Shown: positions 11,206 to 17,147 of the stretch, one piece after another | Numbering within the stretch: position 1 is the first letter of the stretch | How the letters are laid out: every line of letters begins with the position of its first letter | Origin: Cupriavidus sp. P-10 | Lineage (GTDB): Bacteria > Pseudomonadota > Gammaproteobacteria > Burkholderiales > Burkholderiaceae | NCBI RefSeq assembly: GCF_003402535.2 | Contig: NZ_AP025170.1 | Coordinates: 2,666,001 to 2,730,000 of the forward strand | DNA: 64,000 nt | Direction: 5' to 3' | Made by a program: the position numbers and the translations under genes | Notes under the pieces: generated by a model | Databases searched by the model: none | What the model saw: only the letters and a program-made list of their open reading frames with translations | Told to the model about the DNA's origin: nothing

Positions 11206-12762
11206 TCAGCCAGTCCGGCGTTGCGACTCCAGCAGCGCCCGCAGCTGCGGCTTCATCACCTTGCCCAGCGCGCTGCGTGGCAGGTCATCCAGCAGCACCA
11301 CCTCGCGCGGGAGCTTGAAGCGGGCGATGCGGGCGGCCAGCGCCGCGCGCACCGACGCCGGCGCCAGCGGCGCGCGGTCGGCGCCCGGCGCCGGCACGAT
11401 TACCGCCACCGGCACCTCGCCCCAGCGCGCGTCGGCCACGCCCACCACCGCGCATTCCTGCACGCCGGGCAGGCCGAGCAGCACGTTTTCGATCTCGGCC
11501 GGGTAGATGTTCTCGCCGCCGGAAATGATCATGTCCTTGCTGCGGCCGACCACTTCGATGCAGCCGTCGGCATCGCGGTGGGCCAGGTCGCCGGAGTGGA
11601 ACCAGCCGCCGGGCAGGCCATCGCCGGGCAGGCCATCGCCGGGCTGGCTCCAGTACCCGGCCATGACGTTGGCGCCGCGCACCCACACTTCGCCGACCTC
11701 GCCCTGCGCTACCTCGGCGCCGTCGGGGCCGGCCAGCCGCACGGCCACCTCCGGCACCGGCCAGCCGGCATAGCCGGGCCGCGCCATGGCATGCTCCAGC
11801 TTCAGCACGGCCGACACCGGTCCGGTCTCGGTCGCGCCATAGACCTGTCCGAGCGGCACGCCACGCGCGTGGAACGCGTCGATATACGACCGCGGGATCG
11901 TCGACGAACCGGCCATCACGCCGCGCAGCGGCGACAGGTCGGCGTCGCCCCAGCCGGAATGCTCCAGCACCGCGCGCAGCGTGGCCGGCACCATCAGCGA
12001 CAGGCTTGGGCGCGATTGCGCGACCGACGCCAGCCACGCGCCGGGCGCGAAGCGGTCATGCAGCGTCACCTGCGCACCGGCCAGCAGCGCCGGCAGCGTC
12101 TGGATGCACAGTCCGCCGACATGAAAGGTCGGCAGCACCGACAGCACGTGGTCGTCCTGCGTCATGCCGTGCGCCCACCAGCTGGCGCGGGCATTGGCCA
12201 GCAGGCCGGCCTGCGTATGCACCGCGCCCTTGGGCCTGCCGGTGGTGCCCGAGGTGTAGGCCAGCAGCAGCGGCGCGTCGTCGGCAACATGCGGGAAGCT
12301 AACAACGAGCGGCGCCGGGTGATCGATGATGCGTTCCAGATGCGCCAGCCGGCACTGGCGATCACCGGCCTCCGGCGCCAGCGTGGCATGCGCGTCATCA
12401 TGGAAAAGCAGCGCCAGCTGCGCATGGCCGGCGATGGCCTGCAGCTCGGCCGCGGCGAGCCGGTAGTTCAGCGGCACGAACATCGCCCCGACCCGCGCGC
12501 AGGCGAACAGCAGCACCAGCTGCAATTCATGGTTCAGGCACAGCGTGCCGACGCGGTCGCCGGGGCGGATGCCCCATGTCGCCGCGAGGTGGGCGCTGGC
12601 GCGCTCCACGCGGCGCCACAGCTTGCCGTAGCTGAAGGTGCGGCCGAGGTAATGCAGCGCGGGACGCTGCGGCGCCGCGTCGGCGTGCGCCCACAGCATG
12701 GCCGGCAGCGCGCCGAGTCCGGCGGCGCCGGGACGCGAGGAGCCAGGGCGGGCGCCGCTCAT
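11206..12762 (-). CDS. AMP-forming acyl-CoA ligase (class I adenylate-forming)
   Basis: A 518-residue ligase expected to activate a carboxylic acid to its CoA thioester via an acyl-adenylate. The core motifs are present: YTSGTTGRPKGAVHT, YGATETGP, GWFHSGDLAHRDADG, GRSKDMIISGGENIYPAEIE and ALGKVMKPQL with the catalytic lysine. It is the last of four leftward genes; its ATG overlaps the stop of the preceding gene as ATGA (12759-12762). A 15-base tandem duplication at 11611-11640 adds a second GDGLP to the protein. An aromatic or pyridine acid substrate is inferred only from the neighbours. Confidence 0.85.
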   Translation of the reverse strand: MSGARPGSSRPGAAGLGALPAMLWAHADAAPQRPALHYLGRTFSYGKLWRRVERASAHLAATWGIRPGDRVGTLCLNHELQLVLLFACARVGAMFVPLNYRLAAAELQAIAGHAQLALLFHDDAHATLAPEAGDRQCRLAHLERIIDHPAPLVVSFPHVADDAPLLLAYTSGTTGRPKGAVHTQAGLLANARASWWAHGMTQDDHVLSVLPTFHVGGLCIQTLPALLAGAQVTLHDRFAPGAWLASVAQSRPSLSLMVPATLRAVLEHSGWGDADLSPLRGVMAGSSTIPRSYIDAFHARGVPLGQVYGATETGPVSAVLKLEHAMARPGYAGWPVPEVAVRLAGPDGAEVAQGEVGEVWVRGANVMAGYWSQPGDGLPGDGLPGGWFHSGDLAHRDADGCIEVVGRSKDMIISGGENIYPAEIENVLLGLPGVQECAVVGVADARWGEVPVAVIVPAPGADRAPLAPASVRAALAARIARFKLPREVVLLDDLPRSALGKVMKPQLRALLESQRRTG

Positions 12763-14012
12763 TCGTCGCGCTCGCCGGATTCGTACAGCGTTTCGCGGCC
12801 CATGCGGTCCAGGATCAGTTCCGCGGTCCATGGCAGCATCAGCGCGCCGCAGCGCGAATCGCGGTACAGGCGCTCCAGCGGCAGGTCCTTCAGCATCGAC
12901 TGCCCGCCGCAGGTCCGGATCGCCAGCCGCGCGATGTCGTTGGCGCCTTCCATCACGGTGTAGTGCGCGGCGTACAGGCGCAGGCGCTCGTCCTTGGAAG
13001 GGTTCGGTTTCGCTTCATGGATGACGCGCCAGAAGATCGAGCGCATGGTCTCGAGCTGGATGCGCATCTGCGCCACCGCGATCTGCTTGGTCGGATACAT
13101 GCGGCGCTTGACCGGCGGCTGGCCCGGCACCTCGCCGCGCAGGTACTGCACCGTGAAGTCGTAGGCGGCCTGCGCCACGCCCAGGTAGGTCGGCGACAGC
13201 GTGAAGAACATCGCCGGCCAGGTCTGCGCGGCGCGGTAGTAGACCCCGCGCGGCATCAGCTGCTCCTGGTCGGGCACGAACACATCCTTCAGCAGCAGCG
13301 TGCGCGAGACCGTGCCGCGCATGCCCATCGGGTCCCATTCGCCGGTGACGGTGAGGCCGTCGGCCTTGCCCGGCACGGCGATATAGAGGGTATCGCGCAT
13401 GTCGGGATGCTGGTCGCCGCGGTCCTCGGTGCAGAGGATGCCGTAATAGTCCGCCGCGCCCGACAGCGAGGCAAAGATCTTGCGGCCGTTCAGCACCCAG
13501 CCGCCTTCGACCTTGCGCGCGGTGGTGCCGAACGGCGCCTTGCCGGCCGCCGCTGCCGAGCCTTCCGAGAACGGCTGCGCGTAGACCGCGCCGTCGCGCA
13601 CCACGCGCCCGAAATGCAGCGCACGGCGGGCTTCGTGCTCGGCGCGCTGTTCGGGCGTCATCTCGATGCCATCGGACAGCGTTCCGGTCCACATGGTCGA
13701 GCAGATATGCATGTTGTACGTCAGCGCCGTGGCGCCGCAGAAGCGGCCGATCTCGGCACCCACCATGCAATAGGTGGCAAAGTCCGCGCCCTCGCCGCCG
13801 AACGCTTCCGGCACGCACAGCGCCAGCAGCCCGGCTTCGCGCAGGTCGTCGTAGTTGGCAAAGGGGAAGCTGGCCTCGCGGTCCCAGGTGGCCGCGCGCT
13901 CGGCAAAGCGATCACGGCCCAGGCGGTTGGCCAGCGCCAGCAGGTGCGCCTGGCGCGGGGTGAAATCCGCCGTACCGACGGCAGGAATGAAGTCGAGCTG
14001 GCCGGATGGCAT
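12759..14012 (-). CDS. Acyl-CoA dehydrogenase-fold flavoprotein, catalytic Glu not found at usual site
   Basis: A 417-residue protein with the acyl-CoA dehydrogenase fold: LREAGLLALCVPEAFGGEG in the N-terminal helical domain, YAQPFSEGSAAAAG and GGWVLNGRKIFASL in the beta domain, then YPTKQIAVAQMRIQLETMRS and IRTCGGQSMLKDLPLERLYR. Ordinary enzymes carry the base in IYEGT after the RDAR motif. Here the region reads YRDSRCGALMLPWTAELIL, so that Glu is absent. It could be a dehydrogenase with its base elsewhere or a class D flavin monooxygenase fed by the divergent flavin reductase. AAGGAG lies just upstream of the start at 14012. Confidence 0.8.
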   Translation of the reverse strand: MPSGQLDFIPAVGTADFTPRQAHLLALANRLGRDRFAERAATWDREASFPFANYDDLREAGLLALCVPEAFGGEGADFATYCMVGAEIGRFCGATALTYNMHICSTMWTGTLSDGIEMTPEQRAEHEARRALHFGRVVRDGAVYAQPFSEGSAAAAGKAPFGTTARKVEGGWVLNGRKIFASLSGAADYYGILCTEDRGDQHPDMRDTLYIAVPGKADGLTVTGEWDPMGMRGTVSRTLLLKDVFVPDQEQLMPRGVYYRAAQTWPAMFFTLSPTYLGVAQAAYDFTVQYLRGEVPGQPPVKRRMYPTKQIAVAQMRIQLETMRSIFWRVIHEAKPNPSKDERLRLYAAHYTVMEGANDIARLAIRTCGGQSMLKDLPLERLYRDSRCGALMLPWTAELILDRMGRETLYESGERDE

Positions 14013-14092
14013 GTCGCGGTCTCCTTGGCGCCGGTCGATGTGAAGCGGCGCCTTTGTTCTGGTTTTCTGGTACTGGTGGACCGGCGCGCGCT

Positions 14093-14911
14093 TCAGCGCA
14101 CCGGGAAATGCCGCTGGAGGAAATCGAGGACGGGGGCGTTGAATGCCGCCGGCCGCTCCATGCAGGCCAGGTGGCCGGCATCGGGCAGGCAGAGGTACTC
14201 GGCACCGGGGATGCGCTGCGCCATGCGCTGCATCACTTCGGGCGCGGCGTTGGTGTCGTGCTGGCCGGCCAGCGCCAGCACCGGCACGGCGATGCCCGGC
14301 AGCGCGTCGCGCTGGTTGAAGCGCACCAACGCGCCCAGCGCGGCGCGGTAGGTCAGCGCGGGCACTGCGGCCATCACGGCGGTGGCGAAGGCCACGGCGG
14401 GAGCATCGGCATCCGGCGCGACCATCGTGCGCACCAGCCCCACCGCCATCTCGGCCATGGTCTTGCCGGCATCCAGCGGCGCGGTACGCGCGGCGATGAA
14501 CTCGCGCTGCCACGGCCCGTCGCCCTTGCCAAAGGCAGGAGAGGTGCCGGACAGCACCATGCCGTCGATCAGTGCCGGCGTGGCGGCGTACGCCTGCTGC
14601 GCCACCATGCCACCCATGCTGTGGCCGAGCAGCACCACGCGCCGGCCGGCATCGCGCTCGGCCTGCAGCAGCGGCGCCAGCGCGCGGGCCAGGCCGTCGA
14701 AGTCATAGGGGTCGATCATGGCACTGTCGCCATAGCCGGGCATGTCCCATGCCAACGCGCGGTAGCCCGCCTGCGCCAGCGCTTCGCCCTGCGCCGGCCA
14801 CGCGGCCTTGCCGCCGCCGATGCCGTGCAGCATCACCACCGCGACCGGGCCGTCGCCCCATTCCAGCGTGGCGATGCCGTTGGCGTGCTTGCGGAGGTTG
14901 GGGGCGCTCAT
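14093..14911 (-). CDS. Alpha/beta hydrolase, NicD-like (N-formylmaleamate deformylase candidate)
   Basis: A 272-residue alpha/beta hydrolase. The oxyanion region VMLHGIGGGKAAW (residues 26-38), nucleophile elbow GHSMGG with Ser98, acid Asp219 in LAGQHDTNAAP and His247 in DAGHLACMERP form a complete triad. Its start overlaps the stop of the NicX-like gene by four bases (ATGA). In nicotinate degradation an alpha/beta hydrolase of similar size, NicD, acts directly after NicX on N-formylmaleamate. That makes this assignment attractive but unproven, since generic 3-oxoadipate enol-lactonase-like hydrolases look the same at this level. Confidence 0.72.
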   Translation of the reverse strand: MSAPNLRKHANGIATLEWGDGPVAVVMLHGIGGGKAAWPAQGEALAQAGYRALAWDMPGYGDSAMIDPYDFDGLARALAPLLQAERDAGRRVVLLGHSMGGMVAQQAYAATPALIDGMVLSGTSPAFGKGDGPWQREFIAARTAPLDAGKTMAEMAVGLVRTMVAPDADAPAVAFATAVMAAVPALTYRAALGALVRFNQRDALPGIAVPVLALAGQHDTNAAPEVMQRMAQRIPGAEYLCLPDAGHLACMERPAAFNAPVLDFLQRHFPVR

Positions 14912-15978
14912 GCCTGCACCTCCACCAAGTGGCCTGCCTCCACTTCATGGCGGCCGTCGAGCGAGACCGTACAGTTGCGCAACGGCAAGTCGAAATGGCC
15001 CAGCGTATGGCGGCCGGCGACCTCGTTGGCGCCCGTGGAAAACAGGAAATTTCCGCCGAACGCGCGCAGCTCGGTGCCGTTGCAGTCGCGCTTGTCGTAG
15101 AAAGCCAGCGCGTCCCAGCGCGCCATCCGGTTCAGGCCCCAGCCCACGTGCGAAACCGCATACGCGTCGCGCGTGCCTTCGCGGTCGGCCCACGCCTGGT
15201 AGTAGCCGCGCATCATGTCGGCGTCGACGCCCTGCCCTTCGACGGCGACGATGTAGTCGTCCTCGATATGGCAGACCACGGTGTCGCGCAGGTAAGTCTT
15301 GAAGGTCAGGTTGACGTCGCCCGGCGCCAGCACCAGGGTGCCGTTGACCTGGCGGCTGGCCGGGAACGCCAGGCACAGGCCGCCCGGCCAGTGCGAGACC
15401 TGCCCCGGCTTGTTGCAGAAGCCCCAGACGCCGCCCACGCGTGCGTCGGCCAGGCCAATGCGCAGTTCCGTGCCGGCGGCGGAATGCACGCGCATTTCCT
15501 TCGCGCCGCGCAGGCGCTTCATGGCGGCGCGCACGGTGCCTTCCAGCGCCGGGTCGGGCTGGCAGCGTTCCAGGATCTCGGGGTGTTCGTTGCTGACCAT
15601 CAGCATGCGCGGCACCACGCCGTCGGCGCCGCGCAGGATCAACGGCAGCTCGGGCGCGTGCAGCAGGCCTTCGACCGTGCAGTCGAGCACCAGGTGGCAG
15701 CGCGACAGCGCCGCGACGACCGGGGCAAGGTTCTGCAGCGCATCGCTGGCGCCGGTCGAGCGCACTGGCGCCGGCGCGCTGAGTGCCGGCGTCGGCACCT
15801 GGATCCGGACCGGCGTGGCGCCCAGCGACTGCACCGCCAGCTCGGCCAAGGCCACGTTGACAGGGCGGGATTGCGACTCCGTTACAATTCCAACGACTTC
15901 CGCGCCCTGCAGGGCACAGAGTTCCAGGGTTCGTCGGAATGCCGCCAGCCAGCGGTGTTCGATCTGCTCGATGAGCAT
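14908..15978 (-). CDS. 2,5-dihydroxypyridine 5,6-dioxygenase-like protein (NicX family)
   Basis: A 356-residue protein that resembles NicX, the Fe(II) extradiol-type enzyme opening the 2,5-dihydroxypyridine ring to N-formylmaleamate. P. putida NicX is about 350 residues with iron ligands recalled as His265, His318 and Asp320. Here His277 (AVSHVGWGLN) and the pair His328-x-Asp330 (LGHFDLP) have nearly the same spacing. It is the first gene of the leftward set, with AGGAGAC at 15984-15990 upstream. A member of the wider family acting on another substrate is possible, so no symbol is given. Confidence 0.72.
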   Translation of the reverse strand: MLIEQIEHRWLAAFRRTLELCALQGAEVVGIVTESQSRPVNVALAELAVQSLGATPVRIQVPTPALSAPAPVRSTGASDALQNLAPVVAALSRCHLVLDCTVEGLLHAPELPLILRGADGVVPRMLMVSNEHPEILERCQPDPALEGTVRAAMKRLRGAKEMRVHSAAGTELRIGLADARVGGVWGFCNKPGQVSHWPGGLCLAFPASRQVNGTLVLAPGDVNLTFKTYLRDTVVCHIEDDYIVAVEGQGVDADMMRGYYQAWADREGTRDAYAVSHVGWGLNRMARWDALAFYDKRDCNGTELRAFGGNFLFSTGANEVAGRHTLGHFDLPLRNCTVSLDGRHEVEAGHLVEVQA

Positions 15979-16100
15979 GACTTGTCTCCTGCTTGTTATC
16001 GTGGCGGCATCAGCCGCGTTATTTTTATGCGCCGGCCGTCCCTTTTAGCAGGGCGGCCCGTCAGCGGACTTGGTTGCTGTCCCTGGCGGGAATAATATAT

Positions 16101-16112
16101 ATGAAATTTCAT
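16101..16112. promoter_or_regulatory. Palindromic operator candidate for the MarR regulator
   Basis: ATGAAATTTCAT is a perfect 12-base palindrome in the 153-base gap between the NicX-like gene and the flavin reductase. It lies inside an AT-rich patch (AATAATATATATG) that stands out from the GC-rich surroundings and could hold a -10 box. Its position 19 bases before the flavin reductase start would let a bound MarR dimer block the rightward unit and possibly the leftward one. Confidence 0.45.
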
Positions 16113-16131
16113 GAACTCCAGTGGAGCCCCC

Positions 16132-16692
16132 ATGGGCATGCCTGAAGCCCAGCCACGGACCGTCAACGCCGCCGCCGCGCCAGACTTCGATGTGCAGCAC
16201 TTCCGCCGCACGCTCTCGCAATTCGCGACCGGCGTCACGGTGATCACCACGCGCGCCAGCGCCGAAATGGTTGCGGCCGGCGCGCCGCCGTTCATCGGCA
16301 TCACGGCCAGTTCGTTCAACTCGGTTTCGCTGGACCCCCCGCTGGTGCTGTGGAGCATGGGCACCCGCACCAATAGCCTGCCGATGTTCCGCGACGGCAC
16401 CCACTACATCATCAATGTGCTGTCGGCGTCGCAGATGGACCTGTGCCAGCGCTTCGCGACCCTGAAGGGCGACCGCTTCGCTGGCGTGGACTATCGGCTG
16501 TCGGCCACCGGCCTGCCGATCCTGACCAACGCCCTGGCCTGGTTCGAATGCCATAACCGCAGCCGCTACGACGAGGGCGACCATGTGATCTTCGTCGGCG
16601 AGGTGGAGCGCTGCGGCGTGCTCGAAGGCCCGGACGGCCCGCTGGTGTTCCAGAGCGGCCAGTTCTCCACCACCACCCCGCTCGAGCCCTGA
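16132..16692 (+). CDS. Flavin reductase domain protein (HpaC/RutF family)
   Basis: A 186-residue flavin reductase-like FMN-binding protein. It starts its domain with FRRTLSQFATGVTVITTR, continues with GITASSFNSVSLDPPLVLW and ends with HVIFVGEVERC. Such proteins supply reduced flavin to two-component monooxygenases. The ATG at 16132 has GGAG at 16123-16126. An in-frame ATG at 16111 is less likely because it lies in the palindrome and lacks a ribosome site. The gene is divergent from the NicX-like operon and followed 14-17 bases later by a MarR gene. Confidence 0.85.
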   Translation: MGMPEAQPRTVNAAAAPDFDVQHFRRTLSQFATGVTVITTRASAEMVAAGAPPFIGITASSFNSVSLDPPLVLWSMGTRTNSLPMFRDGTHYIINVLSASQMDLCQRFATLKGDRFAGVDYRLSATGLPILTNALAWFECHNRSRYDEGDHVIFVGEVERCGVLEGPDGPLVFQSGQFSTTTPLEP

Positions 16693-16709
16693 GCGGCCGC
16701 GGCTCCGTG

Positions 16710-17147
16710 ATGTCGGACCAGCCTTTCGTCGATGGCTACCTGGCCTACCTGCTGGCCCGCGCGAGCCACCTGATTTCCGGCGAATTCCACCGCGAGGTCG
16801 AAGCCCGCGGCCTGTCGGTGCCGGAATGGCGCGTGCTGGCGACGCTGGCCGACCGCGCCGACTGCACCATCGGCGCGCTGGCCGAGATCACGCTGACCAA
16901 GCAGCCCACGCTGACCAAGCTGGTCGACCGCATGGCGGCCGAGGGGCTGGTCAAGCGCACCGCCGGCACCACCGACCGCCGCCATGCGCTGATCTCGATC
17001 ACGCCGCACGGGCTGGCGCTGGCCCGGCCGCTGCTGGAGCGCGCCGCGCAGCATGAGCGCGCGGTGCTGAATGACTTCGGGCCCGAGCAAGGGGCCCAGC
17101 TCAAGGAAACGCTGCGGCAGCTGATCGCGCTGCACACCCAGCGTTAA
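16710..17147 (+). CDS. MarR family transcriptional regulator
   Basis: A 145-residue winged-helix regulator. The recognition part is LSVPEWRVLATLADRADCTI then LTKQPTLTKLVDRM, with the wing GTTDRRHALISITPHG. Length and layout are standard for MarR repressors that respond to phenolic or aromatic acids. NicR of nicotinate degradation is of this class. The start is GTG 16707 or ATG 16710. The gene closely follows the flavin reductase and most likely controls both arms of the catabolic cluster through the palindrome at 16101-16112. Confidence 0.88.
   Translation: MSDQPFVDGYLAYLLARASHLISGEFHREVEARGLSVPEWRVLATLADRADCTIGALAEITLTKQPTLTKLVDRMAAEGLVKRTAGTTDRRHALISITPHGLALARPLLERAAQHERAVLNDFGPEQGAQLKETLRQLIALHTQR

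Follow-up and report, generated by a model that had tools for sequence, protein, structure and literature searches.

We have investigated a six-gene cluster at positions 11206 to 17147 of a 64,000-nucleotide stretch of the Cupriavidus sp. P-10 genome (contig NZ_AP025170.1, positions 2,666,001 to 2,730,000; hereafter the window), the genes of which probably form one regulated unit for the degradation of indole. We rate the chance that this cluster, or cassette, turns indole into anthraniloyl-coenzyme A (CoA) as slightly better than even. The broader proposal, to which we give even odds, is that the cassette represents a widespread, undescribed indole operon in which a NicX-fold enzyme has moved from pyridine to indole chemistry and cleaves indoxyl before indigo forms, providing the orphan indigo enzyme BEC with its pathway and bacteria with a second, iif-independent route from indole to anthraniloyl-CoA. 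The host assembly comprises 9.08 Mb in five contigs, and the features in the window are:

14908..15978, minus strand: non-haem Fe(II) dioxygenase with a NicX fold, in a clade separate from NicX; proposed to cleave indoxyl between C2 and C3
14093..14911, minus strand: alpha/beta hydrolase (Pfam Abhydrolase) with a GHSMGG serine plus a GxxD/His pair; proposed to deformylate N-formylanthranilate
12759..14012, minus strand: acyl-CoA dehydrogenase (ACAD)-fold flavin monooxygenase, BEC orthologue; proposed to convert indole to indoxyl
11206..12762, minus strand: adenosine monophosphate (AMP)-forming aryl/acyl-CoA ligase (Pfam AMP-binding); proposed anthranilate-CoA ligase
16101..16112, no strand: palindrome ATGAAATTTCAT (pattern ATGAANNTTCAT) lying between the divergently transcribed genes; candidate operator for MarR
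16111..16692, plus strand: flavin reductase of HpaC/HsaB type (Pfam Flavin_Reduct, E 2.3e-38); presumed to supply BEC with reduced flavin
16707..17147, plus strand: MarR-type regulator (Pfam MarR); presumed repressor

In the proposed pathway, the flavin reductase would supply reduced flavin to BEC, which would hydroxylate indole to indoxyl. The NicX-like enzyme would then cleave the C2=C3 bond of indoxyl to yield N-formylanthranilate, the HO-C3=C2-NH unit of indoxyl being that which NicX cleaves as HO-C5=C6-NH in 2,5-dihydroxypyridine, with the fused benzene ring taking the place of Glu177. Deformylation by the hydrolase would release anthranilate and formate, and the ligase would produce anthraniloyl-CoA, which would feed into the 2-aminobenzoyl-CoA (abm) pathway, whose genes lie elsewhere in the genome; both transcripts would be controlled by MarR through the palindrome. 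This route would account for the six genes, the widened pocket of the dioxygenase, the missing maleamate genes, the association with abm and the neighbouring kyn operon, which also ends at anthranilate. Among these activities, that of BEC is the one taken from earlier experiments (indigo or indoxyl formation, as given in the literature and in database names); the substrates of the dioxygenase, hydrolase and ligase, as well as the regulation, we infer. The sequence comparisons themselves establish which genes are present, the orthology with BEC, the iron site, the changed pocket, the joint loss of the four genes, the conserved palindrome and the co-occurrence with abm.

The ACAD-fold protein aligns with BEC of Cupriavidus necator (UniProt Q9AHJ3) at 85% over 100% of its length, sharing its fold and having the same start and end. 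A search of a 5.8-billion-protein set, in which 8000 candidates were scored and the best 120 listed, returned among the matches listed a 79% relative carrying the name 'BEC protein-catalyzes hydroxylation of indole to indoxyl' and a 99% relative filed as 'MULTISPECIES [Cupriavidus]', most other named matches being plain acyl-CoA dehydrogenases. The indoxyl hypothesis predated the finding of the BEC match. The catalytic Glu of acyl-CoA dehydrogenases is present at neither the YEGT nor the isovaleryl-type position in 12/12 orthologues, positions which we take to be those of this residue and which were placed in the alignment by eye. The C-terminal stretch of these 12 sequences is LMLPWTAE, except for one with LMLPLTAE, and all 12 have an N-terminal His102 that aligns with a His of 5z8t. 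The relevant passages of two reviews count a protein of R. eutropha HF39 (Drewlo et al. 2001), which is presumably Q9AHJ3, among the ACAD-like or class D enzymes that form indigo.

Comparison with NicX (2,5-dihydroxypyridine 5,6-dioxygenase, PDB 7cn3) indicates that the window dioxygenase has the NicX fold, the iron ligands His265, Ser302, His318 and Asp320 (NicX numbering) and equivalents of Arg293 and His189. Across a clade alignment of 124 sequences, not all of them independent as some metagenome-assembled genomes occur in both the order sample and the scan described below, His265 and Ser302 are present in 124/124 and His318 and Asp320 in 123/124, with a gap in one. Glu177 of NicX binds N1 and O1 of the substrate. 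None of the 124 clade sequences has Glu at this position, where V, G, N, S or A is found instead (Val184 in the window dioxygenase), whereas Glu is kept in 6/6 true NicX proteins, including those of loci L114-L117 which were added for comparison, and Val175 is replaced by Gly in 121/124. The NicX-like character assigned by the initial annotation stands with respect to fold and iron ligands, while the cassette enzyme differs from NicX in belonging to a separate clade, in both pocket residues and in having no nicE, nicF or nicD partners. Replacement of Val175 and Glu177 opens the pocket, and in the portion of the NicX literature available the E177A variant retains 2.7% activity. The altered pocket suggests that the dioxygenase opens a hydroxylated indole rather than a pyridine.

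Related dioxygenases occur in other settings. In a sister variant (L099, L100, L102-L104 and L101), an FAD_binding_3 hydroxylase replaces BEC beside the dioxygenase and hydrolase (a Pfam assignment made for L100 and L101); 6/6 have Gly at residue 177 and Tyr in place of His189, a combination which suggests yet another substrate. Plasmids of Ensifer adhaerens and Aminobacter aminovorans encode a 51-52% relative annotated as 'peptidase M29', with an ACAD, a hydrolase, a TetR regulator, a glutamine-synthetase-like gene, an APC permease and a flavin reductase as neighbours, and this is a plasmid-borne catabolic variant. In L130, L137 and L138 the dioxygenase is found without BEC and the adjoining gene is closest to the abm-cluster ACAD (33%), L130 also carrying a beta-lactamase-fold protein and an ABC uptake system.

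The six genes listed by the initial annotation are real, and its interpretation of them is supported in part. The minus-strand genes are read from 15978 down to 11206 in the order dioxygenase, hydrolase, bec and ligase, and the dioxygenase and hydrolase genes share an ATGA overlap, in agreement with the translational coupling it had described; a second such overlap joins bec and the ligase gene. BEC orthology and the AMP-binding match bear out the ACAD-fold protein and CoA ligase, just as the Pfam matches on the plus strand do the facing flavin reductase and MarR genes. The start of the reductase may be a later ATG, because 16111 overlaps the palindrome. The NicD-like label given to the hydrolase did not hold: cassette hydrolases have a GxxD late in the chain and lack a VDPP stretch, the reverse of the NicD-position proteins of five true nic loci, and, on sequence grounds, the cassette enzyme is not a NicD orthologue. 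The choice of catalytic Asp in this comparison is presumptive. The solved structures nearest to the ligase, 8weu/8wev (E 6.5e-104), are named fatty-acyl-CoA synthase and feruloyl-CoA synthetase.

Beyond the MarR gene lie an Lrp-type regulator gene and then kynB, kynU and kynA, the products of all three kyn genes exceeding family cut-offs, so that the tryptophan pathway does adjoin the cluster as had been noted. A cassette orthologue is present in 36/60 genomes of the genus (82-100% identity), and synteny compared across Cupriavidus places it beside the kyn operon in 16/16 loci read at length (the L055 contig stops short of the ligase gene) and in 12/12 Pandoraea scan loci. Cassette-lacking loci were read in 18 of 24 Cupriavidus genomes; all four minus-strand genes are gone together in 18/18 and the MarR gene in 17/18, while the kyn genes stay and the flavin reductase is retained next to kynR in all 18. 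Outside the genus, the set of dioxygenase, hydrolase, ACAD and ligase genes recurs in other families. The best 80 of 586 dioxygenase relatives detected at E 0.001, the 586 not all being assigned to this clade, have 66-85% identity to the query and span records labelled Burkholderiales, Alphaproteobacteria, Pseudomonadales, SAR324 and Acidimicrobiales/Acidimicrobiia. Anywhere in the fetched stretches of these 80 loci, a hydrolase of the cassette type is labelled in 68, an ACAD in 67, a reductase in 35 and a MarR regulator in 31, and BEC is not within 6 kb in 13; gene labels outside the window come from a custom open reading frame caller, some loci end at contig ends, and L076, L077 and L079-L081 were left out of the counts. 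The pattern ATGAANNTTCAT has its sole occurrence in the window at the palindrome. It is conserved by the dioxygenase gene in 30/30 Cupriavidus loci (centre AT), in 11/12 Pandoraea loci (centre TA) and, among the other scan loci, in 15/19 with marR versus 4/49 without. The 80 scan loci together contain 31 sites of this pattern in 1.36 Mb.

AbmA, a full-length FAD_binding_3 and Oxidored_FMN fusion of the 2-aminobenzoyl-CoA monooxygenase/reductase type, co-occurs with the cassette. In a Burkholderiales sample, the fusion is present in 16/16 cassette genomes versus 41/383 others (Fisher p 4e-15, kinship ignored), or 9/9 versus 30/149 by genus, and it is also found in 11/11 Pandoraea searched and in 5/5 further Burkholderiales. 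Outside this order it occurs in 19/30 genomes (17 full length, 2 split at contig ends), comprising 18/22 alphaproteobacterial or unplaced genomes and the one SAR324 genome, with 0/3 Pseudomonadales and 0/4 Acidimicrobiia; among the 24 which have both dioxygenase and BEC at the locus the count is 18 (16 full length, 2 split), BEC being missing nearby in the other 6/30. AbmA lies within 20 kb of the cassette in 6/14 cassette genomes outside its own family, and in the Cupriavidus sp. P-10 genome it belongs to an abm-like cluster 0.32 Mb away (L113). A kynA match (TIGR03036, E 0.001, counts including matches below the family cut-off) was found in 12/16 cassette genomes versus 64/383. In Cupriavidus strain SHE, according to the section of a review that deals with it, anthranilate from indole is degraded via 2-aminobenzoyl-CoA. 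A second tryptophan-2,3-dioxygenase-like protein (G000:C2:820390-821181, 243 bits, below the family cut-off) is encoded in the host genome and in many other Cupriavidus genomes. In five loci (L086-L090, one cut by the stretch end), a salicylyl-CoA-5-hydroxylase-like fusion is situated near the cassette, accompanied in L086 and L088 by a salicylate-AMP-ligase-like protein, a glutathione S-transferase, a Bug-type protein and a glutaryl-CoA-dehydrogenase-like gene.

Several observations weigh against an indole pathway leading to anthraniloyl-CoA. Six genomes with dioxygenase and BEC have no AbmA (three Pseudomonadales, L182, L183 and L196), nor do the four Acidimicrobiia, the loci of which lack BEC. 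A control of six genomes with only NicX-type enzymes (~40% identity), whose genomic context was read in all but G295 and G382, is also rich in AbmA (5/6) and kynA (5/6), G295 having the AbmA fusion ~5 kb from its nicX; this weakens both associations, which in part mark versatile degraders. A kynA match is likewise present in all 24 cassette-lacking genomes of the genus, in G052 only below the cut-off. The flavin reductase, being kept in 18/18 cassette-lacking loci, is not dedicated to BEC and has another use. The ligase is labelled in only 62/80 scan loci, and its specificity for anthranilate is a prediction from sequence. C. metallidurans CH34 is described, in the extract consulted, as not growing on anthranilate despite annotated abm genes. 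XiaF and relatives use a C-terminal His, His371 in XiaF, according to the available part of the group D literature, and this His is missing in 12/12 BEC-type orthologues. Finally, indigo formation is a common side activity, and indole may therefore not be the natural substrate.

A different bicyclic N-heterocycle, for example 4-quinolone or a substituted indole, which gives anthranilate after 3-hydroxylation and HO-C=C-NH cleavage, is an unlikely alternative substrate, for which the reaction unit and the exit to anthranilate would be the same. Variation of residue 177 within the clade hints at more than one substrate, and the plasmid relatives carry the glutamine-synthetase-like gene and permease; set against this, the conserved four-gene set has no quinoline-type molybdenum hydroxylase and BEC is named for indole. 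It is also improbable that the ligase acts first, forming anthraniloyl-CoA or another aryl-CoA which is hydroxylated by BEC, cleaved by the NicX-like enzyme and split by the hydrolase in a second anthranilate pathway beside abm. Such a thioester route would fit the overlap of the bec and ligase genes, the anthranilate made by the adjoining kyn operon, a pocket which, widened by V175G and E177V/G, could admit the side chain, and the action of ACAD-fold TdaE on CoA esters described in the accessible part of its literature. However, BEC and related enzymes are reported, in the passages available, to form indigo from free indole, the pathway would be redundant with the AbmA that each of the 29 cassette genomes in a searched set of 31 already has, and a ligase of the cassette type was not found in five loci retaining the other three genes (L170, L172, L178, L185 and L197), although L172, L178 and L185 do contain a distant ligase-like protein (23-24% to that of L086). 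Catabolism of a pyridine acid or 2,5-dihydroxypyridine via maleamate, as the initial annotation proposed, has the NicX fold and iron ligands in its favour and is nonetheless highly improbable, given that Glu177 is absent throughout the clade, that nicE, nicD and nicF type genes are not in the cluster (as had been pointed out for nicE and nicF) and are present in the true nicX loci L039, L040 and L114-L117, that maleate isomerase was not found at E 1e-8 in 13/19 non-Cupriavidus dioxygenase genomes (8/14 with BEC, 5/5 of the FAD_binding_3 variant), the remaining six having matches of 35% identity at most, and that the same genome has separate true nic clusters. Two such clusters of nicE-nicD-nicX-nicF type, with molybdopterin hydroxylase genes, are located at G000:C2:667001-685000 (L039) and G000:C1:869001-887000 (L040), and a third maleate-isomerase-like gene (58%) at C2:365551 stands beside a FAD_binding_3-type match at C2:363899.

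If cleavage of indoxyl by the cassette is correct, NicX-type iron dioxygenases would constitute a wider ring-cleavage family, BEC would gain a pathway, an enzyme removing indoxyl would become available, and the labels 'peptidase M29' (in the plasmid relatives) and 'acyl-CoA dehydrogenase' would need changing. A 2018 review states, in the portion concerned, that iif is not the sole indole degradation cluster, citing a strain without iif and naming no other cluster there; the cassette is a concrete candidate for such a cluster. In the literature searched, which covered subscription papers little and some sources in part, a NicX-type enzyme joined to indole or BEC was not found.

From the parts of the literature consulted, the iif/ind clusters of Acinetobacter and Cupriavidus SHE also start with a two-component flavin monooxygenase and end at anthranilate, followed by 2-aminobenzoyl-CoA in SHE. 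They use a group E styrene-type monooxygenase, a short-chain dehydrogenase and a cofactor-free oxygenase, whereas the cassette would combine the group D enzyme BEC with an Fe(II) NicX-fold enzyme; by Pfam, group E monooxygenase, short-chain dehydrogenase and DLH-like oxygenase domains are absent from the six cassette genes. An indole route via indoxyl and N-formylanthranilate was reportedly proposed for Aspergillus niger by Kamath and Vaidyanathan in 1990, with the same intermediates as those suggested here, in a fungus; the literature consulted names no genes for it. N-formylanthranilate is also reported as one of the indole products of the Providencia rettgeri GS cluster (PMC9871250), an account which, in the sections available, names no NicX-fold protein, unlike the cassette. 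BEC itself features in the literature, as far as the available excerpts go, as a single indigo gene unlinked to a ring-cleaving dioxygenase or pathway, in contrast to its setting in the cassette. Systems of this kind, in which an aromatic catabolic operon includes an Fe(II) enzyme that cleaves the ring, are known; the substrate switch and the combination of genes appear to be new.

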